NCBI RefSeq assembly: GCF_004103715.1
Contig: NZ_CP035282.1
Coordinates: 310,001 to 374,000 of the forward strand
Length of the DNA stretch: 64,000 nucleotides
DNA from: Acidilutibacter cellobiosedens
GTDB taxonomy: Bacteria; Bacillota; Clostridia; Tissierellales; Acidilutibacteraceae
Direction of reading: 5' to 3'
How positions within the stretch are numbered: the stretch's first letter is position 1; every line of letters begins with the position of its first letter. A program made the position numbers and the translations under genes. Under the pieces are notes generated by a model. That model was not told the DNA's origin, did no database searches, and worked only from the letters and a program-made list of their open reading frames with translations. Positions 11,288 to 28,230 of the stretch are shown piece by piece.

Positions 11288-11358
11288 AATATATGTTTAC
11301 GTTTATGAAGGCATTTTACAATGTTAATGAAATAACCTCCGTATTATTTTATTTTGTA

Positions 11359-11393
11359 TGCTTACCTAGTTTGCTGGGTGAGCAATTTTTTTT
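11359..11393 (+). terminator. leader terminator before parM
   Basis: TGCTTACCT (11359-11367) pairs with GGGTGAGCA (11376-11384, two G-T pairs) and a run of eight T follows. Placed about 70 bp after the promoter and 90 bp before parM, it could attenuate the operon or end a short RNA. Confidence 0.55.
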
Positions 11394-11479
11394 GCAGAAA
11401 TACTTGAAATTATAAAAAATCATCGGCTATAAAGAACGATAAGGAACTTAAATTTTATTAAAGAAATGGAGGAATTACT

Positions 11480-12388
11480 ATGGGAAACAGGATTTTATTG
11501 GGACTTGATAATGGAAACAAATGTACAAAAACAAGTGAGGGCTATATTGTTGAGTCAGGATTTACTAAATCTAATAGTGAGCCAATCTCAGCGAGCAACT
11601 TGTTAATTTATGAAGGTAAGTTTTATAGCATCGGAGGTAATAGATTGAGTGTCCAGATGGATAAGACAGTTAATCAGGATACTTTCATTATGTCTTTACC
11701 TGCAATTGCAGATGCTGTAAATATAGCGAGGATAGAAGATAAATCTGATGTAATTCTAGGAGTAGGACTTCCAATTGTCAATTATGGAACTCTTAAGAAA
11801 AAATTTCGGGAATATTTTTTAAGACAGGATGTTAAATTTAATTTTAACAAAAAAGGTTATGCAATTAATATTATTGATTGCAGGGTGTATCCACAGGGGT
11901 ATGCTTCGCTTATTACGGTATTTAACAGTTATAAGGATATATTATGTAATGTTATAGATATTGGCGGTTATACTGTAGATATTTTTAGAGTGGAGAACGG
12001 GATAATTGACACTGCATCGTGTTACTCACTCCCTGACGGAATTATTACGCTAATTGCGAATATACAGCAGGAACTCTTAAAAACAAATATTAGGCTGACT
12101 GAAACTCAAATACAAGATATTATATTAGGAAGAGAACCTGTTATTTTTGAAGCAGATGTTAAAGAGATAATTAAAATAATGACGAATGAGTATGTAGAAA
12201 ACATATTGGCCAAAATTGAGGAATATGGGTTCGAATTCCGTAACCCTACTGTTTTCACAGGTGGTGGAAGTATGTTGCTTCGGAAATATATTGAAGAATC
12301 CACAAAAGTAAGGTATGCGGATTTTCTTGACCAGTTTGCTAATGCAAAGGGCTATAAAATCCTATTAGAGCAGGAATTAAGAAGGTGA
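11480..12388 (+). CDS. parM: ParM/StbA-type actin-like plasmid segregation protein
   Basis: A 302-residue actin-fold ATPase that should form filaments to separate DNA copies. Phosphate-1 loop LLGLDNGNKCTKT (residues 6-18), phosphate-2 NVIDIGGYTVDIF (around residue 160) and adenosine motif VFTGGGSMLLRKYI (around 256) are all present. Length is normal for ParM-like proteins. GGAGG precedes the ATG. The next gene follows by four bases and looks like its adaptor. This indicates plasmid or integrative-element ancestry. Confidence 0.9.
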   Translation: MGNRILLGLDNGNKCTKTSEGYIVESGFTKSNSEPISASNLLIYEGKFYSIGGNRLSVQMDKTVNQDTFIMSLPAIADAVNIARIEDKSDVILGVGLPIVNYGTLKKKFREYFLRQDVKFNFNKKGYAINIIDCRVYPQGYASLITVFNSYKDILCNVIDIGGYTVDIFRVENGIIDTASCYSLPDGIITLIANIQQELLKTNIRLTETQIQDIILGREPVIFEADVKEIIKIMTNEYVENILAKIEEYGFEFRNPTVFTGGGSMLLRKYIEESTKVRYADFLDQFANAKGYKILLEQELRR

Positions 12389-12392
12389 TGCT

Positions 12393-12683
12393 ATGGTAAC
12401 AAAACGAATAAACCTGTCTTTTTCTATGGATAGAGAGGAAGATGTTAAGGTATATAACATACTTTCTGCACAGAAATATAAAACGGATTACGTTATTAAG
12501 GCAGTATTAAGTTTTACGGGGAAAAATGATAAGGATTTTGATAAGGAGAAAATAAAGGAGGCTTTAAAGGAAGCAATAGCGGAATGTGGAGGAATTACTA
12601 TAGGGAACAGTAAAAAAGATAATGATGATTATGCTCAGCCTGAATTACCTGAGGGTATATTTAATATGTTTGATAATCTATAG
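12393..12683 (+). CDS. ParR-like DNA-binding adaptor
   Basis: A 96-residue basic-then-acidic protein. The N-terminus KRINLSFSMDREEDVKVYNI looks like a ribbon-helix-helix beginning (beta strand, then helix), as in ParR centromere-binding proteins. The acidic tail (PELPEGIFNMFDNL) could contact the ParM filament. It is co-transcribed with parM. The function is inferred mainly from position and size. Confidence 0.7.
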   Translation: MVTKRINLSFSMDREEDVKVYNILSAQKYKTDYVIKAVLSFTGKNDKDFDKEKIKEALKEAIAECGGITIGNSKKDNDDYAQPELPEGIFNMFDNL

Positions 12684-12691
12684 CCATTATG

Positions 12692-12724
12692 AGCAGTGAA
12701 GTTTAGAACTTCCTGCTTTTTTCT
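12692..12724 (+). terminator. terminator after parR
   Basis: AGCAG-T-GAAGTT pairs with AACTTC-CTGCT with a one-base bulge, followed by TTTTTTC, nine bases after the parR stop. Confidence 0.7.
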
Positions 12725-12907
12725 TACCTCCTGTCCCCTATATCCTTACTATGGGGTTCCTAAATGAACTAGAATAAAAAGTTAGGAACTAAAAGGAACC
12801 AGGACTCTATCTCTAGGGAATAAAGGGATAAAACTCTTTACAATCAACATCTAATATGTTACTTTTAATGCAGACATTCTAGGGAGTGTTAGTAAGCGGA
12901 CAAAATG

Positions 12908-12955
12908 GAGGAAATGGTTGCTCTGCAGCAATTTATTTCCTCTGTTTTGTTTTTA
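12908..12955 (+). terminator. strong hairpin with T-rich tail in the 12.7-13.4 kb gap
   Basis: GAGGAAAT (12908-12915) pairs with ATTTCCTC (12935-12942), with an inner TTGCT/AGCAA stem, followed by TGTTTTGTTTTTATTTT. No gene is visible upstream after the parR terminator, so it may end a small RNA. The remainder of 12725-13402 is non-coding with TTAGGG/AAGGGA-like strings. Confidence 0.5.
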
Positions 12956-13402
12956 TTTTAAAATATTTTGCATTTTAAGGGGCGAAACTCGATTTTAGAA
13001 TTGCTTTTCTTAATAAGAAGATAAGTAAGAATGAATTATTAGAAAGCAGCCTTTTTATATAGGAAACGGAGCAATTTGATAGGTATTATATGCTTTGGCT
13101 AAGGAATAAGGGTTAGAAATGGTTTTTAAGGATTAGGGGATAAAAAGCGATTCTAAAACATAATTAGAATGGTGAATAAGAGTTATGGGTTAAAGGGAGA
13201 TAGGGAATTTGGAATGAGGAAATACATAATATGGCAGTAGTTACTGAAGGTATTAAAATTTCTTACCCATTATCTTATTAAAAATCTATATATCTATATA
13301 AAAAGATTCTATCAATAACTTTGGTTATACAATATAATAGTAAATATAATCCTGAAAAGATGTAGCGTAATGGCACATATAACCTTTATGAGGTGAAAAG
13401 AT

Positions 13403-13927
13403 ATGAAAATCAAAAAGAAGACTATCATGATAACAGCATTTTTAATAATACCTTTGATACTGTTTATATTAAGTTATATAAACTATCGTAGTCAAAGAAT
13501 CGATAATAAGCACTTAGAAAGTTTCAAAAGTGAACTGATGACAACTGTCCAGCAAAACTCATCTTTTGATATGAATAATATAACTCCTTTTGAATGGGAC
13601 AGGATGTATGTTATACGACCTTATATTAGCAGAACAGAAATGCAGAAGGTAATAGGCATAAAATGGACTACAGCGGACACTTATATCGGTTATCTAATAT
13701 GTGATAAAACTTGGTTCGGAGAGCATCCATTGGATGATGATATATTTCATAAACTAATTTTTGTAAAAGATAATAAAGTAGTTCTAGATATTACTCTCGA
13801 CAGGAATGATGTGGATTTTACACAGATTAATAGTCCTGTTATAAACGATGACTCTCTATTTGACATTGATAAAGCAGATGAAAGAAATATCATAAAAACA
13901 AGTAAGCAGCAAAAGATGATGCCTTAA
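13403..13927 (+). CDS. membrane-anchored hypothetical protein
   Basis: 174 residues with an N-terminal signal anchor (KIKKKTIMITAFLIIPLILF, residues 2-21), then an outside domain with PFEWDRMYVIRPYISRTEMQ near residue 62. The F.WD..YV..PY pattern occurs in a family of small extracytoplasmic Firmicute proteins without known role. The C-terminus is basic. GAGGTGAAAAG precedes the start. It is followed closely by the mini-OadB protein. Confidence 0.6.
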   Translation: MKIKKKTIMITAFLIIPLILFILSYINYRSQRIDNKHLESFKSELMTTVQQNSSFDMNNITPFEWDRMYVIRPYISRTEMQKVIGIKWTTADTYIGYLICDKTWFGEHPLDDDIFHKLIFVKDNKVVLDITLDRNDVDFTQINSPVINDDSLFDIDKADERNIIKTSKQQKMMP

Positions 13928-13959
13928 TAAAAAACGAATATATATGGAGTGAGTAAGAT

Positions 13960-14253
13960 ATGAAAAATAGGAAATTAACGAAGGCAATTACAGCAGTTAC
14001 CGTTACATGCACTTTAATAGCCGTTATCAGTGCATTTTCCAGTTACTTATTGCCATTATACTTATCATATAAACTTAATAAGGATATAAGAGATGCGGGT
14101 TCAGTAGGAATTATAGGTGGTGCAGACGGACCAACAGCAATTTATTTGTCAGGTCAAATTTCTTCGCACTTGGTTACAATTATCTTTGCAGCATTAGCGA
14201 TTTTGGGAGTTATATATTTAATTGCGGTTAAAAATTCAGTAAAAAAATCATAA
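13960..14253 (+). CDS. miniature protein carrying the OadB Na+-site segment
   Basis: 97 residues with one hydrophobic helix at about 10-35 and another at about 70-88. Between them, GSVGIIGGADGPTAIYLSGQ matches region IIIa of the beta subunit of Na+-translocating oxaloacetate decarboxylase, where the motif GIIGGADGPTAIYLSG includes the Na+-binding Asp. The full beta subunit is over 400 residues, so this is not a working pump alone. GGAGTGAG lies upstream of the ATG. No alpha or gamma subunit gene is nearby. Confidence 0.7.
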   Translation: MKNRKLTKAITAVTVTCTLIAVISAFSSYLLPLYLSYKLNKDIRDAGSVGIIGGADGPTAIYLSGQISSHLVTIIFAALAILGVIYLIAVKNSVKKS

Positions 14254-14333
14254 TCCAGAACCACATTTTAACAATAAAAAGTGTGCAGAATGCAGGTTTT
14301 TTATTGCAAAAAAACAGTGTGATATTATGTAAA

Positions 14334-14363
14334 AAGGCTTTTCAGTTTTTACTGAAAAGCCTT
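14334..14363 (-). terminator. reverse-strand terminator
   Basis: Perfect 13-bp stem AAGGCTTTTCAGT / ACTGAAAAGCCTT. Reading on the minus strand it is followed by TTTTT, so it ends the gene fragment at 14371-14495. Confidence 0.65.
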
Positions 14364-14370
14364 AAGATTA

Positions 14371-14495
14371 TTAATCAGATAGCCATTCCTCAAGACATTT
14401 TATCATCTCACTGATATTTGGATAGCATTGTGTGAACATATTAGATGATAATTCAGGTATTCTATCTGATAATTTGCCTATATAAATCACAATGA
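14371..14495 (-). pseudogene. C-terminal gene fragment cut by the IS630 element
   Basis: The minus-strand frame reads GKLSDRIPELSSNMFTQCYP and ends CLEEWLSD, then a stop at 14371, followed directly by a matching terminator. It has no start and ends where the IS630 element begins, so it looks like the stump of an interrupted gene. The family is not recognised. Confidence 0.4.
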
Positions 14496-15650
14496 CAAAT
14501 GGCTAAATCCTCTTAGTGAAAGGCTTAACATATATATGCACATAGTTTTTTTAACTTACTCTTGTTTTTATTTATAGAACAAAGATAAGATTGAACTTCG
14601 TTTAATAATTCTGTAAATTGATCAAAAAGTGTATTGTGTGTAACAGCAGCACGTATGTTTTTCCACAAGTGTTCTATTGCATTAAGTTCCGAGCAATATG
14701 AAGGCAAGTATAGAAACTCTATATTCTTTAATTCTTTCAAGTATTCGTTTATACCTTTAAAGTGATGATATTTTACGTTATCTGCAATTATTATTACTTT
14801 TTTACCGCTGTAATTTTTAGATACCTTATTTTAAAAAAGACTTGAAGTTTTCAGTATTTCCCTTATCACTAAATTGCTGTGATAATTCGCCGGTTTCAGG
14901 ATTTACTGCCCCAAATATTACGTTTCTTTTTCTTGAGCCGCTGGTATTTGTTTTAACTACTGTTTGAGTACCTTTTTTAGACCAAACCGAAGAAATTGTA
15001 GGTTCAGATGTAATTATTGCTTCATCTTCGTATACAATTACGGTATCTTCATCTTTAGATTCAAGTAAGCCGTTAAGTTCACTCCGAAAATTTTCTAAGG
15101 TTTCTTTATTTACTCTTTTATCTGTTTTCTTTGGACGAGTCTTGGAGTAGTTTAACCGGTGAAGAATGTTGTAGGCAGTTCCAAGGGCTATAGTTTTATT
15201 AAATTTGTTTTTAACAAATGAAACAATAAGCTGCCCCGTCCAGTTACTAAAATTTAAACCCGCATTTCTTGGGCTTGATGATAATGCTTTATCAATTTCT
15301 TTCAATTCATCATTAGTTAGTATGTTTTTTTTAGGCGGATGGGGTATGTCTTTCAGGCCCGCCAATCCGGCTTTATTATATCTATGAAGATATCTTCTGA
15401 CTGTAGAATCAGATTGATGTAACAACTTAGCTACTTCAAGGCTGGTATATCCTTCAAAGAAGTGTAAAATTGCAAGTAACCTGATTTTAAGCCTTACATC
15501 TTTTTCAGTTTGATATAATTGCTTCAACATATCATATGAAGCATATTTAGGATTAACCTCAAGTTTTTTTCTCATGATATCATCTCCAAAACTGTATTTT
15601 CTTTAGTATACTCATTTTGGAGATTTTTAAGCAGTATTTACAGCTATTTG
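14496..15650 (-). mobile_element. IS630-family insertion sequence
   Basis: About 1.15 kb carrying one reverse-strand transposase. Imperfect ends CAAATGGCT--AAAT at 14496 and the inverted CAAATAGCTGTAAAT ending at 15650 are candidate terminal repeats. IS630 elements insert at TA, but a clean TA duplication is not evident. It is flanked by two truncated genes. Confidence 0.7.
14525..15575 (-). pseudogene. IS630-family transposase in two frames
   Basis: The N-terminal part (15575 down to 14826) has two helix-turn-helix segments (YTSLEVAKLLHQSDSTVRRY) and the first catalytic Asp in VIVYEDEAIITSEP. After a TAA the next frame (+1) continues without loss: KVIIIADNVKYHH (second Asp), then YCSELNAIEHLWKNIR (Glu), to 14525. 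The shift occurs at TTTTTTAAAATAA, so either a programmed frameshift or a disabling mutation is possible. All DDE residues are present. Confidence 0.85.
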
Positions 15651-15655
15651 TTAAT

Positions 15656-16254
15656 AAAATTTATATAGTATTTCTAATTTCTACGATTTTTTAAGTAATG
15701 AAAACATTATTGAGAGTGATATTGCAAAGTTTATTAAGAATAATAAAGCATATTTTATAATTGGTTCTATTTTAAAATCAAATTATAACTTTGGGCATCA
15801 TGATGCATTTATTATACCAGAGTTTATGTTGGGAAATTCATACAAAGTAGATTACCTACTCATAGGAAAAAACTCAGGTGGATATGAGTTCGTCTTTGTT
15901 GAGTTAGAAAATCCATATGGAAAAATCACCTTAAAAGATGGAAATTTAGGAGATACTTTTAGAAAAGGTATAAAACAGGTATTTGATTGGGATGAATGGC
16001 TTGAGTCAAATTATGTGTCACTCAGAGAAACTTTTCAAAAATATAAGAACCCAAATGAACAGTTGCCTAATGAATTTTTTAGCCTTGATAAAACAAGAAT
16101 ACACTATGCAGTTGTTGCTGGAAGAAGAGATGCTTTCAATCTAAAAACATATAAAGAAAAACGAAGATATTTAGATAAGCATAAAATTCTTTTACTGCAT
16201 TATGATAATTTATGCGATAGTGCAAAAAGTACCATTGGTAAGCCTACTTATTAG
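15656..16254 (+). pseudogene. C-terminal fragment of a Shedu (SduA, DUF4263) anti-phage protein
   Basis: A frame open from just inside the IS630 end to TAG 16254 gives about 199 residues with no start codon or ribosome-binding site near its beginning. Residues HHDAFIIPEF, KVDYLLIG and EFVFVELENPYGKI match the nuclease core of SduA proteins (D-x(n)-ExN/K). GIKQVFDWDEWL and YAVVAGRRD are also typical. Full SduA proteins are about twice this length. The N-terminal half appears lost where the IS inserted. An internal ATG at 15826 could give a shorter product. Confidence 0.65.
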
Positions 16255-16356
16255 TTAGACATATTTTTTATTGTTCCATTATCTTATTGATAAATAGACT
16301 TTTTTATATACTAAGATTTCAAAAAATAGAGATTATCCTATAAGAGGAGATATAGA

Positions 16357-17100
16357 ATGGATAAGTACAGTGAAGTAATTACAAATTATTTAGGTAGCAC
16401 AGATAAAAATTTATGTGATGACTGTTTATCAAAATTGTTGAGCATCGAACCACGTCAAACTATTAATGCTGTTTGTAATAAATTATTTAAGCAAGATATG
16501 ATAAACCGTTGTAAAGGCGAATGTTCATACTGTAAAAAGATTAAAATAGTAAATGGTGTTGGTCATACGTATAATAACGAAGTGGTAAATCATGAAGTAA
16601 ACAGTCAGAATCATTGCCCGAATCTACAAAACACAAATAATAATGGCGTTTTTTCAAGGCTCCCTTTTGATGAATTTGAAAACAGAGTGGGATTATATTT
16701 AAATAGAAAACTTAAGGATAGTTTCTATGAAAAGCCATTAATTGTAGGTGTTAATAAAGTTCATAAGTTTGATTTGGTTTCATTGGATAACTCCATTGTG
16801 GCGGAATGTAAAAGTTATACTTGGACAAAGGATGATAATTTTCCTTCTGCTAAAATATCAACTGCAATAGAAGCAGTCTTTTATCTTTCTAGAATAATTG
16901 CTGAAAGAAAAGTTATAGTTTTCCAAGATGATTTTAATAAAAAAGGAGAAAGTCTAGTAGAAACTTTTATAAGAAGATATGATGGAATACTTGATGATGT
17001 TGAAGTATGGAGATATTTAGTCGGAGAATCAATTGAGTATGATAGAATTCAAATAAAACGGGAAGGAAAAGAATGCTGGTATAAAAATCTATATAAATAA
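16357..17100 (+). CDS. zinc-finger plus PD-(D/E)XK nuclease-like protein
   Basis: 247 residues. The N-terminus has cysteine pairs (NLCDDCLSKLL around residue 20; CKGECSYCKK around 53) suggesting a zinc-binding module. After a linker, the C-terminal half has KFDLVSLDNSIVAECKSYTW. The D-x(n)-E-x-K arrangement and following helix (SAKISTAIEAVFYLSRI) look like a restriction-endonuclease fold. GGAGATATAG precedes the ATG. It follows the SduA fragment, so a defence role is plausible but unproven. Confidence 0.6.
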   Translation: MDKYSEVITNYLGSTDKNLCDDCLSKLLSIEPRQTINAVCNKLFKQDMINRCKGECSYCKKIKIVNGVGHTYNNEVVNHEVNSQNHCPNLQNTNNNGVFSRLPFDEFENRVGLYLNRKLKDSFYEKPLIVGVNKVHKFDLVSLDNSIVAECKSYTWTKDDNFPSAKISTAIEAVFYLSRIIAERKVIVFQDDFNKKGESLVETFIRRYDGILDDVEVWRYLVGESIEYDRIQIKREGKECWYKNLYK

Positions 17101-17180
17101 ACGATAATCTGAAATCAGCAATAAATTTATATATAATGGTATCCCTATTCCCTTGCTCCTTACCCCTTGTTCCTGTATCT

Positions 17181-17632
17181 ATGTCTCCATCAAATAAAGT
17201 CCTATCATTTTGCAAATTCATTTTAAAATGCAAATAAAGTTGTTTCAGGAAACATGGTTTATTAGGGATTAGGAATCTCGGGTAAGCCATGTTTTTTTAT
17301 TAGAGGTTTGCGAGGGATAGAGAAAAGGATACAAGGCAAAAGTCAGGTAAATCAAGGGATTGGAAGACTGAATGGAAAAGAAAATGGAGAGGAGAAATGG
17401 ATAAAAACTCTCCTTAAACCTTCTCCCTTAACCCTCAATCCTAATAGAACTTTATTTTCATTTTTTGAGGTAAAAATCAAGAAATACAAGTACTTTGAAA
17501 GACAGGTTCAAGGGAAAAGGGTTTAAATGGAAAATTAGGGGTAAAAAAACAAGCCAGTGGTATCAAGGGTTTGAGGGGTGTTGGTGAGAGAACTTTATTT
17601 GAAAAAGGAGAGGAGTTTGTTTGATGAACACA
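17181..17632 (+). repeat. long direct repeat, copy 2 (partner at 1273-1723)
   Basis: Same orientation as copy 1 and the same start (ATGTCTCCATC) and end (GATGAACACA). It includes the terminator-like hairpin at 17250-17298 and four AAATAAAGT-type motifs. Together the copies bracket 15.5 kb of cargo including the ars and par genes. Confidence 0.85.
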
Positions 17633-17634
17633 AT

Positions 17635-17698
17635 AAAAAAGCATGGTCAAAAGGAAAATTTTCTAATCCTATGGCATGCTTTTTTTCTTTAAAATGAG
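17635..17698 (+). terminator. terminator after repeat copy 2
   Basis: AAAAAAGCATG pairs with CATGCTTTTTT across a 36-base loop, with a T-rich tail. No gene lies directly upstream. Confidence 0.5.
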
Positions 17699-17792
17699 GA
17701 ACTGGCAAAGAAGCTAATTCGGTATGAAGAACAATTTTTTCAAATGTTTAGGTAGTATTTTAACTGGATATTCTCGTTAATCTGATATTTTA

Positions 17793-17860
17793 GTAATAAA
17801 TTATTACATAAATACACAAAATATTGACAATAAACAAATACTGATGTAATATAATATTAC
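17793..17860 (+). promoter_or_regulatory. promoter with two palindromic operators for the XRE/ImmA/PIN operon
   Basis: TTGACA (17824-17829), 17 bp, TAATAT (17847-17852). A perfect 15-bp palindrome GTAATATAATATTAC covers 17846-17860 over the -10. A second, GTAATAAATTATTAC, covers 17793-17807 upstream of the -35. Their centres are 53 bp apart, close to five helical turns, which suits cooperative binding of the XRE protein. Confidence 0.75.
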
Positions 17861-17875
17861 AAGGAGGGTTTGAAA

Positions 17876-18265
17876 ATGGTGAAGAATATTCCTATCGGAT
17901 TAAAAATAAAAGCTAGTAGAGAGGCAAAAGAATTAAGCCAAATAGAAGTAGTAGAAAAACTTGCCGAAAAAGATATTGACATGAGCAGGGAAACATTAAG
18001 CAAAATAGAAAACGGCAACAGGACTATATCTGCTGTGGAATTAAATGCTATATGCAAAATTCTGAATATAGATCTAAACGATCTTTTTGAAGAAGATAAA
18101 GGCGATGATTTAGTTACACTATTCAGAAAGAAACATTTCTCAGAGAAAACAATTGAAGAAGTGGAAAAACTTCAGGATATGATAAAGATGTTTATTTATC
18201 AAAAGAAAATATATAATGGAGAGTTTAAACCACAAGAGAGAAAGCTGCTATGGAAGGAGTGTTAA
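17876..18265 (+). CDS. XRE-family transcriptional regulator
   Basis: 129 residues. The N-terminal helix-turn-helix domain (residues about 8-70) has GLKIKASREAKELSQIEVVE and MSRETLSKIENGNRTIS. The C-terminal helix-rich tail may be the target of the neighbouring protease. The ATG at 17876 is eight bases after AGGAGG. It is the first gene of a three-gene unit, with one base between it and the ImmA/IrrE gene, and is likely autoregulated through the two palindromes upstream. Confidence 0.88.
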   Translation: MVKNIPIGLKIKASREAKELSQIEVVEKLAEKDIDMSRETLSKIENGNRTISAVELNAICKILNIDLNDLFEEDKGDDLVTLFRKKHFSEKTIEEVEKLQDMIKMFIYQKKIYNGEFKPQERKLLWKEC

Positions 18266-18266
18266 A

Positions 18267-19058
18267 ATGTCAAAGATTAATTTGAATCTCCCGGAAGCAT
18301 CCTTCAGACTGCAAATCAAAGATTTGGCAGAAGATGTGAGAATAAAATTTGCCAGAAAAGGGCTTTCTGATATATTTGATATTTTATCGGAGGCTGCATT
18401 TTTAATAAGAAAGCCATTGGATACAGACGAATTATCAGGATTTAGCACCTATTTTGAGAGACAGTTTATTGTTTATTTAAACAGTAATTTTACTCTGGGG
18501 CATGAACGCTATACCGGTGCTCACGAATTATACCACCTTATTTATAATGCTGATACTTTGAAAAGAGAAAAAATTTTTTTAGATGATGAAAAGCATAAAG
18601 AGGAAGATACTAAAGCGGATGTATTTGCTTCCGAATTTTTAATGCCCGAAGATTATGTAAAAGAAATATTTTATAAAATTGTTAATGTAGATAAAGACAG
18701 CATTTTACCAAGGCATATTGTTAGAATTCACAATTATTTTAAAGTAAGTTATAAGGCAATGTTAAAAAGGCTTGTTCAGATTGATTTATGTTCTATCGAT
18801 AAATATGAAGAACTCGCAGATATCTGTTCACTAAAAAATACAAAACAACTTCAACTTTTAACCGTACGGGAAGGTTATGATATTGACTTGATAATTCCAT
18901 CAAAAGAAACGTATGTACCCAAAGAATATATAGAATTTGTAAAAAGTAATTACGAAAGAGGGAATATTTCATATAAGAATATGAAAAACAGCCTTGAATT
19001 TATTGGGCTGACACCAAAACAATTTGGGTATGAGTATCCCTTGGAAGAGGACTATTAA
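18267..19058 (+). CDS. ImmA/IrrE-family metallo-endopeptidase
   Basis: A 263-residue cytosolic zinc protease. The HExxH motif is in TGAHELYHLIYN (around residue 92-97), and the third ligand region is DTKADVFASEFLMP, with the E-x-A-FA-x-LMP pattern of COG2856. These proteases cleave partner XRE repressors, as ImmA cleaves ImmR. The tail (residues about 185-263) is an extra helical module. AAGGAG is seven bases upstream. Confidence 0.88.
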   Translation: MSKINLNLPEASFRLQIKDLAEDVRIKFARKGLSDIFDILSEAAFLIRKPLDTDELSGFSTYFERQFIVYLNSNFTLGHERYTGAHELYHLIYNADTLKREKIFLDDEKHKEEDTKADVFASEFLMPEDYVKEIFYKIVNVDKDSILPRHIVRIHNYFKVSYKAMLKRLVQIDLCSIDKYEELADICSLKNTKQLQLLTVREGYDIDLIIPSKETYVPKEYIEFVKSNYERGNISYKNMKNSLEFIGLTPKQFGYEYPLEEDY

Positions 19059-20151: not shown

Positions 20152-20428
20152 TATTATTATAATGTATATGATATTTAAGAAGGTAAAACACATAGATTGG
20201 GAAAGCTGTCCTAAAGTTCTTGACAACGTAAAGAAGAAACGTTTTTTAAAAAAGAAGTAGTATATTGGTATTATAAGAATCAATTTAAAAAGGTATAATT
20301 TATTTTTACAATTGAGTTGTTTAACGTAATGAAGAGAGAAGATATTAACTATTTGAAAAATAATTTTTTGATGTTTTAAGTTAAACTTTATGATAAAAAA
20401 GGTAATTAGGCTGGGAGAAGGTGAGCGT

Positions 20429-20920
20429 ATGATTATAAGAGCAGCAGAATTTGAAGATGAAGAAAGGATATCGGGATTAATAGCACAGTTTAGAGTAGAA
20501 TTAAAAGAACTTAAAGGTATTAAATCCTATGCTAACATAGAGCAGGCAAAAGAAGAATTTAGAGAATACATGGAAGCCAAATTTCCTATATTTGTTGCCG
20601 AAGATAGTAATAATGAATTGTTAGGTTATTTGGTTTGCAGAATTGACGGTGATGTAGTATGGGCAGAATCCCTGTTTGTTTCTGATACTTCAAGAAGAAA
20701 AGGAATAGGTTCAAAATTATATGCAAAAGCAGAGGAAATAGCAAAGAAATTAGGAGAAAATACGGTTTATAATTGGATTCATCCAAATAATGATAAGATC
20801 ATACCGTTTTTATTGAAAAGGGGTTATAACGTTTTAAATCTTATAGAAATAAGGAAACCATGGGAGAATGAGATACCAGCTCAAAAAATAAGTATCGGAA
20901 AATATGAATATAATTATTGA
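20429..20920 (+). CDS. GNAT-family N-acetyltransferase, paralog of 2452-2943
   Basis: 163 residues, MIIRAAEFEDEERISGLIAQ, with the acetyl-CoA loop VSDTSRRKGIGSKLYAKAEE and WIHPNNDKIIPFLLKRGYN. The ATG at 20429 follows GAAGGTGAG. It is very similar over its whole length to the first GNAT, and is likewise next to a methyltransferase gene, though the two methyltransferases are not close relatives. Confidence 0.87.
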   Translation: MIIRAAEFEDEERISGLIAQFRVELKELKGIKSYANIEQAKEEFREYMEAKFPIFVAEDSNNELLGYLVCRIDGDVVWAESLFVSDTSRRKGIGSKLYAKAEEIAKKLGENTVYNWIHPNNDKIIPFLLKRGYNVLNLIEIRKPWENEIPAQKISIGKYEYNY

Positions 20921-20943
20921 TTGCATGAGAGGGAGAAATTAAA

Positions 20944-21573
20944 ATGCTGGACAGTAAGGGCTTTGATTTATGGGCCGATGGTTATGACAAAAGCGTAAAT
21001 ATGAGTGAAGAAAGTAACGAATATCCCTTTGCGGGATATAAAGATGTACTCAACTATATATACAAACAAGTCAGAGGAAAAAATAGCGCGGATATTTTAG
21101 ATATAGGCTTTGGAACGGGAATATTAACTTCCAAACTTTATAATGAAGGATATAATATTACTGGCATTGATTTTTCAAGTAATATGATAGACATCGCAAA
21201 ACAGAAAATGCCCCGGGCAATATTAATAAATTGGGATTTTAAAAATGGAATACCTGATGAGGTTAAAAACCGCCAATTTGATTATATTATTAGCACTTAT
21301 GCAATTCATCATATAACAGATAAAGAGAAAATAAATTTTATAAATTTACTTTCTCCTATGTTAACTGAAACAGGAAAGATAATCTTGGGGGACGTTTCTT
21401 TTGAAAATAAAAGTGAATTGGAAAAGTGTAAAAGGATATATAATAAATGTTGGGATGATGAAGAATTTTATTTTATTGCGGAAGAAATATTAAGAATTTT
21501 ACAAAATCAATACTTATGCAAGTATACAAAATTATCTTACTGTGCCGGAGTGTTGACCGTTATGAGAAAGTGA
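20944..21573 (+). CDS. class I SAM-dependent methyltransferase
   Basis: 209 residues. FDLWADGYDKSVNMSEESNE at the N-terminus resembles YrrT-like methyltransferases. Motif I is ILDIGFGTGILTSKLY, then GIDFSSNMIDIAK, FDYIISTYAIHH and a glycine-rich TETGKIILGDVSF. It begins 23 bases after the GNAT gene with GAGGGAG upstream. Substrate unknown. Confidence 0.85.
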   Translation: MLDSKGFDLWADGYDKSVNMSEESNEYPFAGYKDVLNYIYKQVRGKNSADILDIGFGTGILTSKLYNEGYNITGIDFSSNMIDIAKQKMPRAILINWDFKNGIPDEVKNRQFDYIISTYAIHHITDKEKINFINLLSPMLTETGKIILGDVSFENKSELEKCKRIYNKCWDDEEFYFIAEEILRILQNQYLCKYTKLSYCAGVLTVMRK

Positions 21574-21830: not shown

Positions 21831-22042
21831 TATAATTAAGAATAGTAAAATAATTTATTATTTGTTATATTGTCAATTATAAATTACTTGGGAATTAGAT
21901 GCGAAAATCCTGTTTACTTGATAATTTACCCTCTTATACCGTTTTAATAATTGAGTCATAAGAAAAATGGCGGATTGTAAGTATTATATTCCTGTGATCA
22001 TGATTAGCATTTGTCGAATAAATTATGGGAGGATCAATCGTT

Positions 22043-23082
22043 ATGGCAGGTGAACATACAGATTTGTGTAAAACTGATTCTGTTCTTGATGAAATGATTG
22101 AAACAATACGAGTACAGAAGAAAGCATTTCTCATGAAAACCTTTGTCAAGGGCAGAATTTCTATAAATGAGATAGCAGCAAATTTAAGTTTGCCGATAGC
22201 TTTGGTTTCATACATTAAAAGGGATTTTTTAAGAAACGGGTTTGTTTGTTGCGATGATGATATAATTAGTCTCACTGATTTGGGACTAGCAGTTTAGATC
22301 TTGATCTTCTAAAATTTATATTATCACATTCAATAGATAATAATGTATTAGCCCAGTTCTATGAGGAAATTCAAGAATTTGATCAGTTACTTAAAGATGC
22401 TTCTAACACTAATATAAATATCGACCAAACACGTAATATTGCCTATATCGGAATTAAACGAGCGTTGTTACTAATTCAATATAACCGATTTGTTGGATCC
22501 CAAATATTGTTAATAGGAGATGATGATCTTACAAGTCTTGCAATAACTATAATGTCCAAGAAAATGTTTAAAAATGGAACAACTGGAATACCACAAATTA
22601 CTGTCATGGATATTGATGAACGGATACTAGAATACATACAGACAAACTCACATATTACAAAATGCATCAGACAAGATTTCAGAGATGCACCGTTAAAAGA
22701 ATATAACAATTTATTTGATTGTGCATTTCTTGATCCGCCATATACGGATGATGGATTGTGCTTATTTTTATCCAGAGCAGTTCAGTATGTAAAGCCACAG
22801 GCGAATCTGTTCGTTTCTTTTGGTCATGGAACCGATAAAATGCGATATCGAATACAGAAAATGGTTGTTGATTCTAAGCTATATATCACTGAGATTATTT
22901 CCAAATTTAATTCGTATATTGGTGCAAAAAGCTGGGACGGTTTAAGCGATATGATTGTTTTATGTGCCACGTATGATAAAAAGCCGCTTATTTCTGGCAG
23001 ATATATAGGGACAAGTTTATATACTCATAGTATAAAGAATATGCCACTTAATTCTTATGGGGAGTTTTTGAAAGGAGTATAG
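22043..23082 (+). pseudogene. BpsA-like (branched-chain polyamine synthase fold) enzyme, split by a -1 frameshift
   Basis: The first part (ATG 22043, ten bases after GGGAGG) is a winged-helix-like N-terminus (ISINEIAANLSLPIALVSYI) ending SLTDLGLAV at 22297. The second part continues in the -1 frame from about 22285 (TSSLDLDLLKFILSHSIDNN) to TAG 23082. It has the PF01861 catalytic motifs LLIGDDDLTSLA and CAFLDPPYTDD. The two parts together have normal family length. The junction is the heptamer T-TTG-GGA. The enzyme type transfers aminopropyl groups in polyamine synthesis; here it heads an operon with a transporter and peptide, so a peptide or unusual substrate is likely. Confidence 0.75.
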
Positions 23083-23086
23083 TAGT

Positions 23087-24079
23087 ATGATTGATATTGA
23101 AATTCAGAACCTTAGCAAAGTATATGAGAATGTTATTAAGCAAAGTGGATTTCGGAACAGTATTCTCTACCTTTTTCACAGCCAAAAGAAATTGACTGAG
23201 GCAATTAATAGCCTTGATTTGCAAGTTATGCATGGTGAGTGTTTAGGAATAGTTGGTGCCAATGGAGCTGGTAAAACAACTTTAATTAAATTAATGTCAG
23301 GAATTATTATGCCTACCAGTGGAAGCATAAAAGTATTAGGATATACACCTTTTGAATTGGACATTGAGTTTAAAAAGAAAATTGCTTTTGTTTCAGGACA
23401 GAGAAATCAACTCTTTTTTGATCTAACTGCACTGGATTCATTTAATCTTTTGCAAGAGATTTATTGTGTTCAAAAAAAAGCCTTTAAAGCATCTTTAAGT
23501 GAATTGACTCATATACTCGAAGTTGATGATTTGCTTGATAGACCTATACGAAATCTTTCCCTTGGAGAAAGAATGAAGATGGAAATCATTGGTGCATTAC
23601 TCCATGATCCTCAAATTCTCTTTTTAGATGAACCTACTATTGGGCTTGACTGTATAAGCCAAGGCAAACTGAGGCAATATTTGAAAGAAATAAACAAAAA
23701 AAGGAATACAACGATTATTTTAACAAGCCATGATTTTTCTGATATTATTGATGTGTGTCAAAGATGTATTGTTTTAAGCCATGGTTATAAGATTTATGAT
23801 GAAAATATAGAGAAACTGATTAAACGATTTAACACTAAAAAAATAATTACAATATACAATGATAGAAAAATGCGTTCATTTGTTCTTCCGGATTTCTGTA
23901 AAATTATAGAAAATAGCGACGACAAATTGGTATTTGCACTTCCGCCGGATAAAGTTGGATATATTTACAATCAGCTTTTTTCACAACAACCCACACTGGA
24001 TATTTCTATTGAAGACGAGGATATAGCTAGTATCATTAGCAGAGTATACAAACAGGAGGAAATCAGTCTAAATGAGTAA
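23087..24079 (+). CDS. ABC transporter ATP-binding protein (ABC-2 exporter)
   Basis: 330 residues. Walker A GANGAGKTTLIKLMSG, signature NLSLGERMKMEIIGALLHD, Walker B ILFLDEPTIGLDCISQGKL, and H-loop LTSHDFSDI. The extended N-terminus (SKVYENVIKQSGFRNSILYL) and C-terminal regulatory tail are typical of the DUF990-linked ATPase group. It starts four bases after the BpsA-like gene and overlaps the first permease by eight bases. It powers export, probably of the locus product. Confidence 0.9.
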   Translation: MIDIEIQNLSKVYENVIKQSGFRNSILYLFHSQKKLTEAINSLDLQVMHGECLGIVGANGAGKTTLIKLMSGIIMPTSGSIKVLGYTPFELDIEFKKKIAFVSGQRNQLFFDLTALDSFNLLQEIYCVQKKAFKASLSELTHILEVDDLLDRPIRNLSLGERMKMEIIGALLHDPQILFLDEPTIGLDCISQGKLRQYLKEINKKRNTTIILTSHDFSDIIDVCQRCIVLSHGYKIYDENIEKLIKRFNTKKIITIYNDRKMRSFVLPDFCKIIENSDDKLVFALPPDKVGYIYNQLFSQQPTLDISIEDEDIASIISRVYKQEEISLNE

Positions 24080-24866
24080 GATGCTGAAGGTGTTAACTAC
24101 ATCTGTTAAAATACATAGTGTTTATAAAGCAAATATTTTTTTTAACATAATTTCTATGTTTACAAGGATATTGTTAGCATTTATTCTTTGGGGCGTAGCG
24201 TATGAATCAAATAGCTTAATAGGGGGATATACATATAACCAGATGCTTTTGTACTATATCCTTTCTAGTTTTATTTTGCAATTAGATAAAACAGATATTA
24301 TTGCGAATTCTATGGCTGAAGAAGTACAAAACGGAAGATTTGCCAAGTATATAATAATGCCGATCAATGTAAAAAATTATTTTCTGTTTTATTCCTTGGG
24401 GGATTCTTTTTTGAACTTTTTATTTTCCTTTATTTGTTGCATTGGTTTTATTATATTTTTTGGTCTTCGGTTATCCTTTACAATTACGGCTGCACATTTT
24501 TTGGGTTTGTTAGTTGTAATAGTATTAGGTATTTTAATAATGGCTAATATTAATTTTATAATAGGTACACTGGCAATTAAGTATTATGATATTACTGTAT
24601 TTATGATGGTTAAGGACAATATTTTATCACTGATTACAGGCAGTCTTCTTCCTTTGTCATTATTTCCAAAAGGTATATTGAATATCATGCACTTTTTCCC
24701 ATTTTACTATATTGGCTATTACCCTGTAAACTTATTAATTACCGGGGACGTGGAATCCATCTTTATGGCTGCTTGTATTCTTACTGTTTGGTTGTTTGTA
24801 TTGCATTTAGCCGCTACTAGATTGTTTAAGAAATATATCATGAGTTATGAAGGAATTGGATTATGA
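24072..24866 (+). CDS. ABC-2 family permease, first subunit
   Basis: A 264-residue membrane protein with six hydrophobic segments. The N-terminal cytoplasmic stretch is MSKMLKVLTTSVKIHSVYKA. GGYTYNQMLLYYILSSFILQ and PLSLFPKGILNIMHFFPFYY resemble the ABC-2/DUF990 (PF06182) permeases. It overlaps both the ATPase and the next permease, so the three form one transporter. Confidence 0.85.
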   Translation: MSKMLKVLTTSVKIHSVYKANIFFNIISMFTRILLAFILWGVAYESNSLIGGYTYNQMLLYYILSSFILQLDKTDIIANSMAEEVQNGRFAKYIIMPINVKNYFLFYSLGDSFLNFLFSFICCIGFIIFFGLRLSFTITAAHFLGLLVVIVLGILIMANINFIIGTLAIKYYDITVFMMVKDNILSLITGSLLPLSLFPKGILNIMHFFPFYYIGYYPVNLLITGDVESIFMAACILTVWLFVLHLAATRLFKKYIMSYEGIGL

Positions 24867-25657
24867 TGAAGAAGAACTTTCGAATAATTTTAATGTTAAT
24901 AAGACAAAAGCTGATAAGGCAAATGATGCATAAGGAAGTGTTTTTTGGAGGATTTTTTGTTAATCTCTCTCTCTTTATTGTGCAATTGTTATTTTTCAAA
25001 ATTATATATAGTAATATAAACGTTATTGACGGCTGGACTCAGTATCAGATAATTTTTTTTATTGGTACATACAATCTTATAAATAATATTGCTATGATGT
25101 TGTTTTACTTTGGGATCAATAAAATACCACGCCTAATCAGAAGTGGTAAAATGGACTTCTACCTTTTAAAGCCTTGCAATTCATTGCTATATATTAGTTT
25201 TGAAAATTTTGATTTTAGTTCGTTTCCTATGGTAATGTTTAGCATAGTTATAATTATATATGCTGCACTGATGGAGAACATTACGCTAACTGCACAGAAT
25301 ATCATTCTATATCTGTGTTTCCTGATTTTGATGTGTATTTTATATTATGATCTTCTGGTTTTAGTTCGTTGTGTCGCATTTTTTACAATAGATATTTCCG
25401 GACTGGAGAACGTAGAATGGTCTTTGACTGAGCTTACAATGAAAATTCCGGGGACAGCCTTTAAATCGTTTTTTAAATTGCTTTTTTGCATAATAATCCC
25501 ATACGGATTGATTTCAACAGTGCCAAGTTATATGTTTTTTCATACAGTTGATTGGAATTCAGTAATTTTGGTGTTAATAATTGTTTTTGTGTTTTCGGCA
25601 ATCACATATTTTGCATGGAAGTTTTCAGTAAGGCATTATCGTAGTGCCAGCAGTTAA
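24863..25657 (+). CDS. ABC-2 family permease, second subunit
   Basis: 264 residues with six hydrophobic segments. DGWTQYQIIFFIGTYNLINN and KIPRLIRSGKMDFYLLKPCN match PF06182-type permeases (the R.GK.D..LLKP motif lies in the coupling helix region). It begins with an ATGA overlap with the first permease. Pairs of this type are encoded together with one ATPase in exporters of unknown substrates. Confidence 0.87.
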   Translation: MMKKNFRIILMLIRQKLIRQMMHKEVFFGGFFVNLSLFIVQLLFFKIIYSNINVIDGWTQYQIIFFIGTYNLINNIAMMLFYFGINKIPRLIRSGKMDFYLLKPCNSLLYISFENFDFSSFPMVMFSIVIIIYAALMENITLTAQNIILYLCFLILMCILYYDLLVLVRCVAFFTIDISGLENVEWSLTELTMKIPGTAFKSFFKLLFCIIIPYGLISTVPSYMFFHTVDWNSVILVLIIVFVFSAITYFAWKFSVRHYRSASS

Positions 25658-25796
25658 CCATCTGCACTTTTATTGAAATTCAAAATAAATGTTGTAACAA
25701 GAGATTTTTTTATACAAAAGTAATTGGTAAAGGACGGAAGAAAGTAAAATCAACTATTGGACTCTTTATTTAACTGCAAGGAAGGGGGTGAGAATA

Positions 25797-25886
25797 ATGT
25801 ACGATCTGGATGAAGCTTATGTGGTGCCAGAAATTGACGACATGGATGATATGTCATTGGCATCAGCTTGGTCGGTTCTGGAATAG
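25797..25886 (+). CDS. candidate peptide precursor (29 residues)
   Basis: The ATG follows GGAAGGGGGTGAG, the strongest ribosome-binding site in the locus. The peptide is MYDLDEAYVVPEIDDMDDM then SLASAWSVLE and TAG: an acidic leader-like part and a small Ser/Ala/Trp tail. It lies between an export system and a TldD-type protease, as precursor genes do in RiPP clusters. A -1 shift near codon 26 would replace the end with GSGIVHSTVTGFGGDKGNRY, a Gly-rich core-like tail. It could also be the broken start of the downstream gene. Confidence 0.5.
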   Translation: MYDLDEAYVVPEIDDMDDMSLASAWSVLE

Positions 25887-26068
25887 TCCACAGTACAGTT
25901 ACAGGATTCGGCGGAGATAAGGGGAATCGCTATTGAATATTTTGACTTTGGTGTCTAAGAGATTGTAGATACTGGCAAAGAAATCCAGCTTACTCCCTAA
26001 TATCTACCTCCTTTGCAGCATATATTAAACAAACTGCAATTTCTACTGCATATCCGTGTTCTGTATTA
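25887..26068 (+). other. probable decayed 5' region of the TldD-like gene
   Basis: In the peptide's own frame, after its TAG, the text reads STVQLQDSAEIRGIAIEYFD, FGV, stop, EIVDTGKEIQLTP, stop. The AEIR...EIVDTGKEI style resembles N-terminal strands of TldD proteins. The frame of the downstream protease is open back to about 25946. This suggests lost N-terminal coding sequence with frameshifts, not a clean spacer. Confidence 0.35.
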
Positions 26069-27076
26069 ATGACTTTTTCTGAGCAACATGAGATAATATC
26101 ATTTCTTAGATTAACAACAGAAGAATGGAGTAAGAAACTCCTTTCAAATATACGATTGAGCTGTGACTTTTCCTATGAAATAATTGGCTTTGATTCTAAA
26201 AATGCTGAACAAATTCGAAGGTTTTATACTTATATTTACATAAATATAAATGGAAGAACAAAATTATCAAAAAGTAGTATATTTCCTTATCTATTACAAT
26301 TGGAAGAAATTCAGAAATATGTTGAGCATATTCTACTTAACATCGATTTAAATGTTGAAAAACACATGATAGAACCTGGTTTTTTTGATATAGTTTTTGA
26401 AGCTGGATGGCCTGGACTGATTTTTCATGAAGCTTGTGGACACTGTCTTGAGAGTGACAACATTGTTCGGGGTACTTCCATTTTTGGTAAGAAAGATCTG
26501 GGCAGAAAAGTCTCAATCCCAGAATTGACCTTAGTGGATGACCCGACTAAAAGATATGGAGGATACTTAGACATTGATGACGAAGGAAACAAATCTATGC
26601 CAATAGAACTAATAAAGAATGGATACTTGGCTTCTTTCATAACTGATGAAAAAGGGGCGAATACTCTTTCAACTGAGAACAACGGACATGGTCGAAAGGA
26701 AAAGTATTCATCAAAAACACTTCCGCGCATGACAAATACTTTTATTTTCCCTAATGGTATTTGTACAAGAGAGGATATAATTAGTAATATAGATAATGGG
26801 ATTTATGTAAAAAATTTAGGTGGCGGTAGTGTCAATATTAGTACTGGGGAATTCTGTTTCTATGTTACAGAAGCAGAAAAAATAGAGGGCGGTAAGGTGA
26901 TTCACCACTTAAACGATCTTATGGTTATTGATAATAGTTTGCATTTTTTAGAGAATATATTTTCGATTGCCAATAATTTGGTAATCGAATCTGGTTTCTG
27001 TAAAAAAGAAGGCCAGTGTGTTCCTGTCGGGTGTGGACAGCCAACTATTGCAGTTCACAATGTATACATTCGATGA
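26069..27076 (+). CDS. TldD-type metalloprotease
   Basis: 335 residues. EAGWPGLIFHEACGHCLESD carries the HExxxH zinc motif of TldD. The later DIDDEGNKSMP, LPRMTNTFIFPNG, GGGSVNISTGEF and CKKEGQCVPVGCGQPT segments match TldD through to its C-terminus. E. coli TldD has about 150 more N-terminal residues, so this copy is N-terminally short (see 25887-26068). TldD/TldE trim leader peptides, for example of microcin B17. No TldE partner gene is seen. The start is uncertain, with no good ribosome-binding site. Confidence 0.85.
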   Translation: MTFSEQHEIISFLRLTTEEWSKKLLSNIRLSCDFSYEIIGFDSKNAEQIRRFYTYIYININGRTKLSKSSIFPYLLQLEEIQKYVEHILLNIDLNVEKHMIEPGFFDIVFEAGWPGLIFHEACGHCLESDNIVRGTSIFGKKDLGRKVSIPELTLVDDPTKRYGGYLDIDDEGNKSMPIELIKNGYLASFITDEKGANTLSTENNGHGRKEKYSSKTLPRMTNTFIFPNGICTREDIISNIDNGIYVKNLGGGSVNISTGEFCFYVTEAEKIEGGKVIHHLNDLMVIDNSLHFLENIFSIANNLVIESGFCKKEGQCVPVGCGQPTIAVHNVYIR

Positions 27077-27235
27077 AGCAGTATCTCGGAGATTAAAGTC
27101 ATGGCAAAATACACTTAAACACCAAGTGCAACATTGGACCTCCATGATTTGTTCAGATACATGATCACCAAGAACTCAGCTATGCCAGATACGATTATCT
27201 AAACAGGATTGAGCTTATTTGTTAATTTTTTAAAT

Positions 27236-27322
27236 AGTGAATTGGATACAAGGGTAGGAGAAAGACGGAAGCTTACCATAGCCAGAGCCTTAATTAAAAA
27301 TACCCCGGTAATTCATCATTGA
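27236..27322 (+). pseudogene. remnant of an ABC exporter ATPase domain
   Basis: The frame reads SELDTRVGERRKLTIARALI, KNTPVI, then stop. It matches the region around the ABC signature of peptide/lipid exporters (LDT.VGERG..LSGGQ.QR..IARALL...P) with the SGGQ part deleted. It is the stump of a second transporter of the locus. 27077-27235 holds no intact frame. Confidence 0.5.
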
Positions 27323-27327
27323 ACAAT

Positions 27328-27372
27328 GAGGCTACTAAAAAAATACTTTTTTAGTAGCCTCTCCTATTTTTT
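27328..27372 (+). terminator. terminator ending the peptide locus
   Basis: Perfect 15-bp stem GAGGCTACTAAAAAA / TTTTTTAGTAGCCTC around ATAC, followed by TCCTATTTTTTC. Confidence 0.8.
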
Positions 27373-27417: not shown

Positions 27418-27789
27418 CTAGGTTTTTAAAAAAATATCGATCCTTTTAGCAGAACTATTTTTAAGTTCATAAATAATGTGTTTAATTTTAGGATTATTGT
27501 TTAGAATTTTTATTATTTCATAATCTTCTGTATTATAGCAATATTCTTTTTTATCGCTGCTCTCCTTTATAAGCTGACATTGATTGTTAGATTCTCCTAA
27601 TAGATATGACATATTTGTGTTTAACTTATCAGCAATAATTTGCAAAGTTTGAATAGACGGATTGGTTCTTCCGCTTTCTATATCGTTGATATAAGAATGA
27701 GATAAATTACATATTTTACCAAACTTTCTTAGGCTATATCCGTTTTCCTTTCTTAAATATTTAACTTTTATACCTAAATTATCTATCAT
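27418..27789 (-). CDS. XRE-family transcriptional regulator
   Basis: 123 residues. N-terminal HTH: IKVKYLRKENGYSLRKFGKI, then LSHSYINDIESGRTNPSIQT. The C-terminal part (EDYEIIKILNNNPKIKHIIY) is a helical effector region found in clostridial phage-like repressors. The start is set by AAGGGTGAG. It is divergent from the XRE gene at 28015, sharing a 225-bp control region. Confidence 0.87.
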   Translation of the reverse strand: MIDNLGIKVKYLRKENGYSLRKFGKICNLSHSYINDIESGRTNPSIQTLQIIADKLNTNMSYLLGESNNQCQLIKESSDKKEYCYNTEDYEIIKILNNNPKIKHIIYELKNSSAKRIDIFLKT

Positions 27790-27817
27790 CAGGCTCACCC
27801 TTCTATTTTCGTTAATA

Positions 27818-27873
27818 ACGTACATCTATAATAATATCATAAAAAAAATATCATCATACATTATGCATGTACG
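27818..27873. promoter_or_regulatory. inverted ACGTACAT / ATGTACGT boxes between divergent XRE genes
   Basis: ACGTACAT at 27818-27825 and its complement ATGTACGT at 27866-27873, with a related ACATACAT near 27987. They sit in the promoter region of the reverse-strand XRE gene and are candidate operators. Confidence 0.5.
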
Positions 27874-28014: not shown

Positions 28015-28230
28015 GTGAATAAAATACAACTTGGATATATTATAAAAGAACATAGGCTTAAAAAGGGGCTTACTATTAGAGAATTATCAAAAGCAACCAA
28101 TATATCTGTTGGATTTATTGGCGATATAGAAACTAACAGAAGCAGACCTTCCTATGAAAATTTAGTCAAATTAGTTCGGGTTTTGGAAATACCGATAGAA
28201 GATATTTTTAATATTAAAAGGAATAGTTAA
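28015..28230 (+). CDS. short XRE-family regulator
   Basis: 71 residues, little more than one HTH domain: GYIIKEHRLKKGLTIRELSK, ATNISVGFIGDIETNRSRPS, ending VLEIPIEDIF. GTG start with AAGGGGATG upstream. It probably acts with or against the divergent XRE protein, in the manner of a cI/cro pair. Confidence 0.82.
   Translation: MNKIQLGYIIKEHRLKKGLTIRELSKATNISVGFIGDIETNRSRPSYENLVKLVRVLEIPIEDIFNIKRNS

Follow-up and report, generated by a model that had tools for sequence, protein, structure and literature searches.

The window analysed here is a stretch of 64,000 nucleotides, bases 310001-374000 of the one-contig genome (3.74 Mb) of Acidilutibacter cellobiosedens (contig NZ_CP035282.1). Its plus strand carries, at 22043-27361, a gene of the BpsA family (branched-chain polyamine synthase), the ATPase and two PF06182 permeases of an ATP-binding cassette (ABC) transporter, an open reading frame (ORF) of 29 amino acids, a TldD-like protease gene, the remains of an ABC exporter and, last, a terminator. 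The original prediction, made from the letters alone, had taken this set for a candidate locus making a ribosomally synthesized and post-translationally modified peptide (RiPP) of unfamiliar type, and the genes named in it are present on that strand, roughly where it had placed them, as judged by Pfam domain matches and the ORF list. The features are:

22043..22297, plus strand: N-terminal part of the BpsA-family gene; Shine-Dalgarno (SD) pairing of -11.0 kcal/mol at ATG 22043; alignable to the N-domain of relatives; closed by TAG at 22295-22297
22279..22297, plus strand: frame-change stretch, beginning with TTTGGGA (22279-22285), an X-XXY-YYZ heptamer in the zero frame
22279..23082, plus strand: BpsA-family enzyme, catalytic part, open for 267 amino acids in the -1 frame; motifs GDDD, DIDER, DPPY, FNSY and LYT
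23087..24079, plus strand: ABC transporter ATPase, 330 amino acids; full PF00005 domain (E 2e-26, profile 2-136 of 137)
24072..24866, plus strand: ABC-2 permease 1, overlapping the ATPase gene; PF06182 domain complete (E 1e-21, profile 4-229 of 229)
24863..25657, plus strand: ABC-2 permease 2, overlapping permease 1; PF06182 domain complete (E 5e-44, profile 2-229 of 229)
25797..25886, plus strand: acidic ORF of 29 amino acids, candidate precursor or severed TldD head; SD, codon score (p 0.03), YVVPEI
25887..25994, plus strand: continuation of the peptide frame beyond the amber stop and a second stop; 36 codons, weakly gene-like (p 0.05)
26069..27076, plus strand: TldD-like metalloprotease without domain 1, HEACGH and C-terminal Cys kept; PF19289 (1.2e-48), weak SD (-4.1)
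27119..27319, plus strand: remnant of an ABC nucleotide-binding domain of exporter type, interrupted by a stop; tblastn 3e-6
27328..27361, plus strand: intrinsic terminator with a stem of 15 pairs

The first gene encodes a diverged member of a known family, and the claim of a BpsA-fold enzyme is borne out by its PF01861 match, its motifs and its predicted fold. The match to PF01861 reaches 78.1 bits against a curated cut-off of 27 (E 8e-22; 6.8e-25 as genome match) and is the only one in the whole genome, and the catalytic part also matches PDB 5xnc (E 1.7e-8). A predicted model, covering the part in the -1 frame and built with 23 relatives, has a mean predicted local distance difference test score (pLDDT) of 87.7; its best structural match is 5xnf_A (Z 26.7, root-mean-square deviation (rmsd) 2.6 over 222 residues), the BpsA entries together with the related 2qm3 span Z 24.1-26.7 and rmsd 2.3-3.6 over 209-226 residues, and the next row drops to Z 18.0. 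The GDDD, DPPY, FNxY and YT columns are invariant across 24 sequences, and the GDDD motif is reported to be essential (PMC12979288). By count in the alignment with PDB 5xnc, Asp225 is the D of DPPY and Tyr290 the Y of FNxY; Tyr316 lies outside the aligned part. A match to HTH_24 on 22025-22294 is weak (E 0.019). The predicted start at 22043 stands, with its SD of -11.0 kcal/mol versus -1.4 at 22025.

In family score, in GDDD and the other motifs and in predicted fold, the enzyme thus resembles the solved BpsA chains (PDB 5xnf, 5xnc, 6j27), from which it differs by an identity of only about 20-22%, a very long branch, the exporter next door and a genome in which no speD was found. Placed in a tree of 74 rows, the enzyme sits on a branch of 2.05 changes per column, the median being 0.24; the nearest row is G380 with weak support (94/64), a placement that the long branch makes unsure. 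Such long divergence with the catalytic core retained suggests that the enzyme may have changed its task and been lost recently. It also lacks the acidic C-terminal tail of BpsA, only one of 18 residues after LYT being acidic. Since the most acidic 10-residue stretch near the C-terminal end of 69 relatives holds 1-5 acidic residues, so that acidic clusters are rare in relatives too, the missing tail does not set the window enzyme apart. By eye, a CxxC..CxxC tail is common in many relatives from Bacillota and absent from the window enzyme.

What the original prediction treated as a single gene keeps its family and its start, but not an intact frame, as it is split by a -1 frameshift at 22279-22297. 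The frame from ATG 22043 stops at TAG 22295-22297, and the -1 frame, which opens at 22279 directly after a stop, runs for 267 codons; both halves align with relatives. No intact modifying enzyme therefore lies beside the candidate precursor.

The ATPase and both permeases are intact and tightly coupled to the enzyme gene. Overlaps or short gaps, predicted for the whole series, are indeed found from the enzyme through the ATPase to the two permeases, which are spaced like an operon by their coordinates, but not around the peptide ORF, where gaps of 139 nt before and 182 nt after it occur; the tight spacing ends at 25657. The ATPase matches TIGR01188 at 1.5e-50, yet below the cut-off of that family. 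The closest exporter homologue found is encoded in G848, with identities of 54% over 183 amino acids for the ATPase, 38% over 218 amino acids for permease 1 and 44% for permease 2 (264 versus 272 amino acids). In this homologue (L058, 10084-11896) the ATPase and permease 1 fall into several ORFs, which suggests that it may be decaying too and leaves permease 2 as the sole yardstick of length. Relatives of permease 2 are scarce: besides the host itself, one genome among 398 of the phylum has one at 1e-45 and none among 248 of the order at 1e-40.

Behind the peptide ORF, the TldD-like protease keeps the HExxxH motif and the distal Cys, but the protease announced by the original prediction is reduced to the third Pfam domain, about 110-156 N-terminal residues being lost. 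Its HEACGH and FCKKEGQ align with E. coli TldD and others, and residues 102-333 match PDB 5nj5 (E 6.7e-48). The first domain is missing, since residue 102 corresponds to residue 258 of the E. coli TldD chain and residue 4 to about residue 114 of Salinivibrio TldD. The C-terminal part is about 33-43% identical to TldDs of the order, in which 95 of 249 genomes (own included) have a relative at 1e-30, the best other one scoring 171.5 bits and none extending to residues before 78 of the query. No TldE partner is encoded in the locus; four further PF19289 genes occur elsewhere in the genome as two adjacent pairs. A single-sequence structure model of the protease (pLDDT 33) was left unused. The predicted ABC-exporter stump is present as a remnant of about 200 bases, detected by tblastn at 3e-6 with one query, an exporter of the same genome, on a 280-base target with compositional correction off; its part at 27209-27319 is weakly of MsbA type (E 0.003-0.009, far under the cut-off). 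Likewise, the strong terminator expected at 27328 was found there.

The acidic ORF at 25797..25886 encodes MYDLDEAYVVPEIDDMDDMSLASAWSVLE, with nine acidic and no basic residues. Its SD of -17.3 kcal/mol is reached by only two of the 2,338 ATGs in the window, and by two of the 761 ATGs followed by at least 28 open codons (itself included in both counts), so that a chance start is unlikely. The original prediction had TldD cleave a leader from this peptide, and the ORF does have leader-like features, among them the handle-type stretch YVVPEI. YVVPEI fits the motif [Y/W]xxPx[L/V/I/A/F/Y] of handles for RiPP recognition elements (RREs), which is printed in PMC13381572 as the leader motif bound by recognition domains. 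Since the codons beyond the amber stop still look weakly gene-like, the length of the ORF is uncertain and it may once have been longer. Two ways of extending it were considered and rejected: the 53-residue read-through product has a single NCBIfam match at chance level (E 0.16), and a second frame after the peptide, taken as a hidden core, has a weak codon score (0.10).

The patch is probably acquired DNA in decay, a view based on the gene breakages, the mobile-type genes upstream and, by contrast, the last 20 kb of the window, which from 44 kb on are 93-100% covered by ORFs of at least 100 amino acids. At 10.5-19.6 kb, upstream of the locus, Pfam matches (10531-19058) indicate a 23S rRNA intervening-sequence protein, an actin-like segregation protein, a DDE transposase, the C-terminal domain of the Shedu protein SduA, and helix-turn-helix (HTH) and M78 peptidase ORFs, including a regulator with an M78 peptidase. 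On the same strand as the enzyme gene and ending about 470 nt before it, genes for a GNAT acetyltransferase and an S-adenosylmethionine (SAM) methyltransferase (20390-21573) possibly belong to the same island. Directly after the terminator follow two divergent regulators of HTH_3 type (Cro/C1-like), at 27418-27825 on the minus and 28015-28230 on the plus strand. Searches for RNA families and tRNAs gave no match, and protein pattern scans of viral contigs revealed no relative. Close DNA relatives from plasmids amount to two records, both holding short pieces of the ATPase gene only; plasmid protein searches returned generic TldDs in 61 records, one distant BpsA, and distant permeases (7 records in one search, 1 in another).

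Whether BpsA relatives elsewhere keep such company was examined in 74 loci, namely 69 (7 + 1 + 4, plus 57 of 62 from a contig scan, L120-L124 having been dropped as they have no BpsA match) and 5 added later; as L064 and L147 carry identical enzymes on contigs of equal length and were counted once, 73 distinct loci result. They were gathered among the matches listed, so that at least 73 exist and absence of the gene set elsewhere is not proven. Flanks extended up to about 9 kb, less at contig ends, and four loci with short flanks were fetched again. The permease profile was home-made from four sequences, so that distant PF06182 proteins could escape it, and the TldD profile was made from 20. 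None of 99 further genomes listed belongs to the family of the host. Besides the host's own, BpsA relatives occur in 1 of 391 genomes of the class at 1e-36, in 4 of 398 of the phylum at 1e-20 and in 12 of 209 of the order at 1e-20. SpeD, sought with three queries only, lies near 30 of 65, 1 of 4 and 4 of 5 loci in three sets, hence in the flank of at least 34 of the 73 after removal of the double. This comes close to the situation that the original prediction had named as speaking against it, in which the enzyme sits with polyamine genes, except that these enzymes are distant (about 28-42% identity). Clostridial speD-bpsA loci (such as L046, L048, L064 and L150) contain a homologous enzyme, about 37-40% identical, with speD just downstream, and differ from the window locus in that no such exporter, peptide or close TldD was found; by eye, several of their enzymes carry the C-terminal CxxC..CxxC tail. 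In three loci (L066, 2648-4186; L079, 137-1681; L096, 8542-10110) BpsA and SpeD are joined in a single ORF. In two others (L055, 6584-9538; L067, 8524-11504) BpsA is followed, by eye, by GNAT-like, FkbH-type phosphatase-like and small carrier protein-like ORFs, neighbours that suggest BpsA enzymes in small-molecule pathways.

For the host itself a polyamine locus, though the common setting of relatives, was judged unlikely. Its genome has no match to PF02675, the AdoMet decarboxylase SpeD (8 of 14 control genomes were positive; other decarboxylase families lay outside the search), and a PF01564 match only below the cut-off. An ordinary polyamine role is therefore unlikely here, and plain aminopropyl transfer is doubtful because no speD was found; to judge from these profile searches, decarboxylated SAM is probably not made in the host. 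By analogy, an enzyme of BpsA fold could in principle use SAM itself, as does MccD of microcin C, a protein unrelated to BpsA. The same genome holds a separate, apparently intact locus of RiPP type (L129, 7452-10101; at about 3.494-3.497 Mb), consisting of a 46-residue ORF with YSSPVM, a PqqD-like domain (E 7e-11) and a B12-binding radical SAM gene, with ABC-type genes downstream. As this PqqD match, at 3.496 Mb, is the only one in the genome at E <= 1 and adjoins the YSSPVM ORF, YxxP-type handles may be used in this organism.

The reading that we favour, tentatively and at somewhat less than an even chance, is that the locus is the remnant of a decayed RiPP-like cluster with a BpsA-fold tailoring enzyme; very likely, its pathway is dead or dying in this genome. 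In its favour stand the fold and motifs that the enzyme has kept despite its long branch, the operon-like spacing of enzyme, ATPase and permeases, the SD and the YVVPEI stretch of the peptide, the PqqD-type gene next to the YSSPVM ORF, the metal site of TldD, the exporter scrap, the improbable polyamine role and the mobile-type genes upstream. When intact, the strong SD would have driven production of an acidic precursor, which a recognition domain would have bound by its YxxP stretch as a handle. The diverged BpsA-fold enzyme, made together with its own ABC-2 exporter, may then have tailored the product with a three-carbon group derived from SAM, either 3-aminopropyl from decarboxylated SAM or 3-amino-3-carboxypropyl from SAM; that any enzyme here modified the peptide we only infer. 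TldD, paired with a TldE encoded at another place in the genome, would have cut the leader, and the ABC transporters would have exported the product or protected the cell, in an order of steps that is equally conjectural.

Among known systems, TldD/E is an established protease of leaders (PMC10885120, PMC5810440), the former paper naming leader removal in the RiPPs microcin B17, klebsazolicin and McC-Yps. Common to these RiPPs and the present locus is a TldD with its metal site beside a short acidic ORF, here a candidate precursor only; different are the truncation of the window TldD and the lack of azole-forming or adenylylating enzymes among the scanned ORFs. A group of the kind carried by microcin C could conceivably decorate a peptide product here too, although MccD and MccE are enzymes unrelated to BpsA, and the ORFs searched with Pfam gave no ThiF-type match. 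With lasso peptides and linear polyphosphorylated peptides (PMC13381572) the locus shares a YxxPx(hydrophobic) stretch, in the leader, and the MsbA-like exporter scrap; no recognition domain, B2 protease, cyclase, kinase or signal peptidase was detected by Pfam in 23 window ORFs at 9.4-28.2 kb.

Several observations weigh against the idea of a decayed RiPP-like cluster. The gap of 139 nt separates the enzyme and exporter genes from the part with peptide and protease. The check proposed by the original prediction, recurrence of the gene set, turned out negative: among the 73 distinct loci listed there is no such permease nearby and one TldD (L064), unlinked, about 8.6 kb away and on the other strand. 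An acidic peptide with one motif is weak evidence, the motif in a wider form with M also allowed at the last place being expected about 0.02 times per ORF of such size (rate in 638 short window ORFs). No relative of the peptide is known, searches of Pfam and NCBIfam gave no family for it up to E 10, and no recognition domain (RRE/PqqD) was found in the locus. The missing SpeD also deprives the enzyme of an aminopropyl donor, except if SAM itself is its substrate. By count in the alignment, no acidic residue of the window enzyme clearly corresponds to Glu259 of Thermococcus BpsA. Also, the stretch between the peptide ATG and TldD is about as long as the TldD domain that is missing, and the distance from ATG 25797 to the TldD stop, about 426 codons versus 461-495 in 30 TldDs, is near the length of a TldD, so that the acidic ORF may be a severed TldD head.

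This last observation belongs to the most serious alternative, which nonetheless seems rather unlikely to us: the 29-residue ORF would be what is left of the 5' end of a once full-length TldD gene, cut off as nonsense and frame changes made that gene decay, no precursor would ever have existed, and a dead TldD of housekeeping or orphan type would lie beside an enzyme-exporter operon by chance. About 93 codons precede TldD residue 4, compared with about 113 in Salinivibrio TldD, the SD is poor at the TldD ATG 26069 and superb at the peptide ATG, and both the weakly gene-like codon usage past the amber stop and the sequence DSAEI in the read-through, which by eye recalls DFAEI/DFAEV of TldD starts, fit a severed head as well. 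In contrast, a profile built from the N-terminal 215 residues of 20 TldDs stays silent in all three plus-strand frames at full sensitivity, although the C-terminal part has kept its identity to TldDs of the order; the 29 residues contain no K or R, unlike TldD starts, and Pfam recognizes no TldD domain 1 in the 53-residue read-through.

Unlikely, and more so than a severed head, is that enzyme and ABC-2 exporter form a stand-alone unit making and exporting a polyamine-like or amino-acid-derived small molecule, to which the peptide-TldD part is unrelated. The end of tight spacing at 25657 would suit such a unit, as would the frequent presence of speD near relatives of the enzyme and the closest exporter found (G848), which has neither a BpsA-type enzyme nor a TldD beside it. 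In G380 and a Paenibacillus, BpsA is followed by GNAT-, FkbH-type phosphatase- and carrier-like ORFs (by eye), with speD about 3 kb further on in G380. However, none of the 73 relatives listed has such an exporter nearby by the home-made four-permease profile, and no speD was found in the host.

It is very improbable that the enzyme is unbroken and the locus works, its halves being joined by a programmed -1 frameshift at TTTGGGA or separated by a mere sequencing error: the -1 frame does open exactly at an X-XXY-YYZ heptamer in the correct phase, both halves align with relatives and the transporter domains are full-length, but such a heptamer has a chance of about 4% of lying there (estimated from its window frequency of 1.07%), the structure downstream is weak (minimum free energy -6.1 kcal/mol over 80 nt), a GGA A-site is to our knowledge outside the efficient slippery sites, the ORF coverage from 44 kb on gives no appearance of a generally frameshifted assembly and so argues against a sequencing error, and decay is the simpler cause of the frame break because TldD and the exporter scrap suffered damage of other kinds.

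A further and highly doubtful proposal can be made by analogy with Thermococcus BpsA, in which the enzyme's own acidic C-terminal tail is esterified and carries aminopropyl groups during catalysis (PMC12979288). A BpsA-fold transferase without an acidic tail might load aminopropyl or amino-carboxypropyl groups onto the Asp/Glu cluster (PEIDDMDD) of a separate acidic peptide and thereby define a RiPP class; the peptide would be a BpsA tail turned product or scaffold, trimmed by TldD and exported. None of the open-licence papers listed, a set from which subscription journals are mostly missing, links BpsA or PF01861 to a RiPP in its title or in the first lines of its abstract.

If no intact relative of the locus turns up, it is a dead end. 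If one exists, the BpsA fold would join the enzymes that tailor ribosomal peptides, and aminopropyl-type decoration would gain a second origin besides microcin C. A BpsA homologue situated away from polyamine genes, in a host in which no AdoMet decarboxylase was found, makes the donor and the acceptor of this enzyme directly testable.

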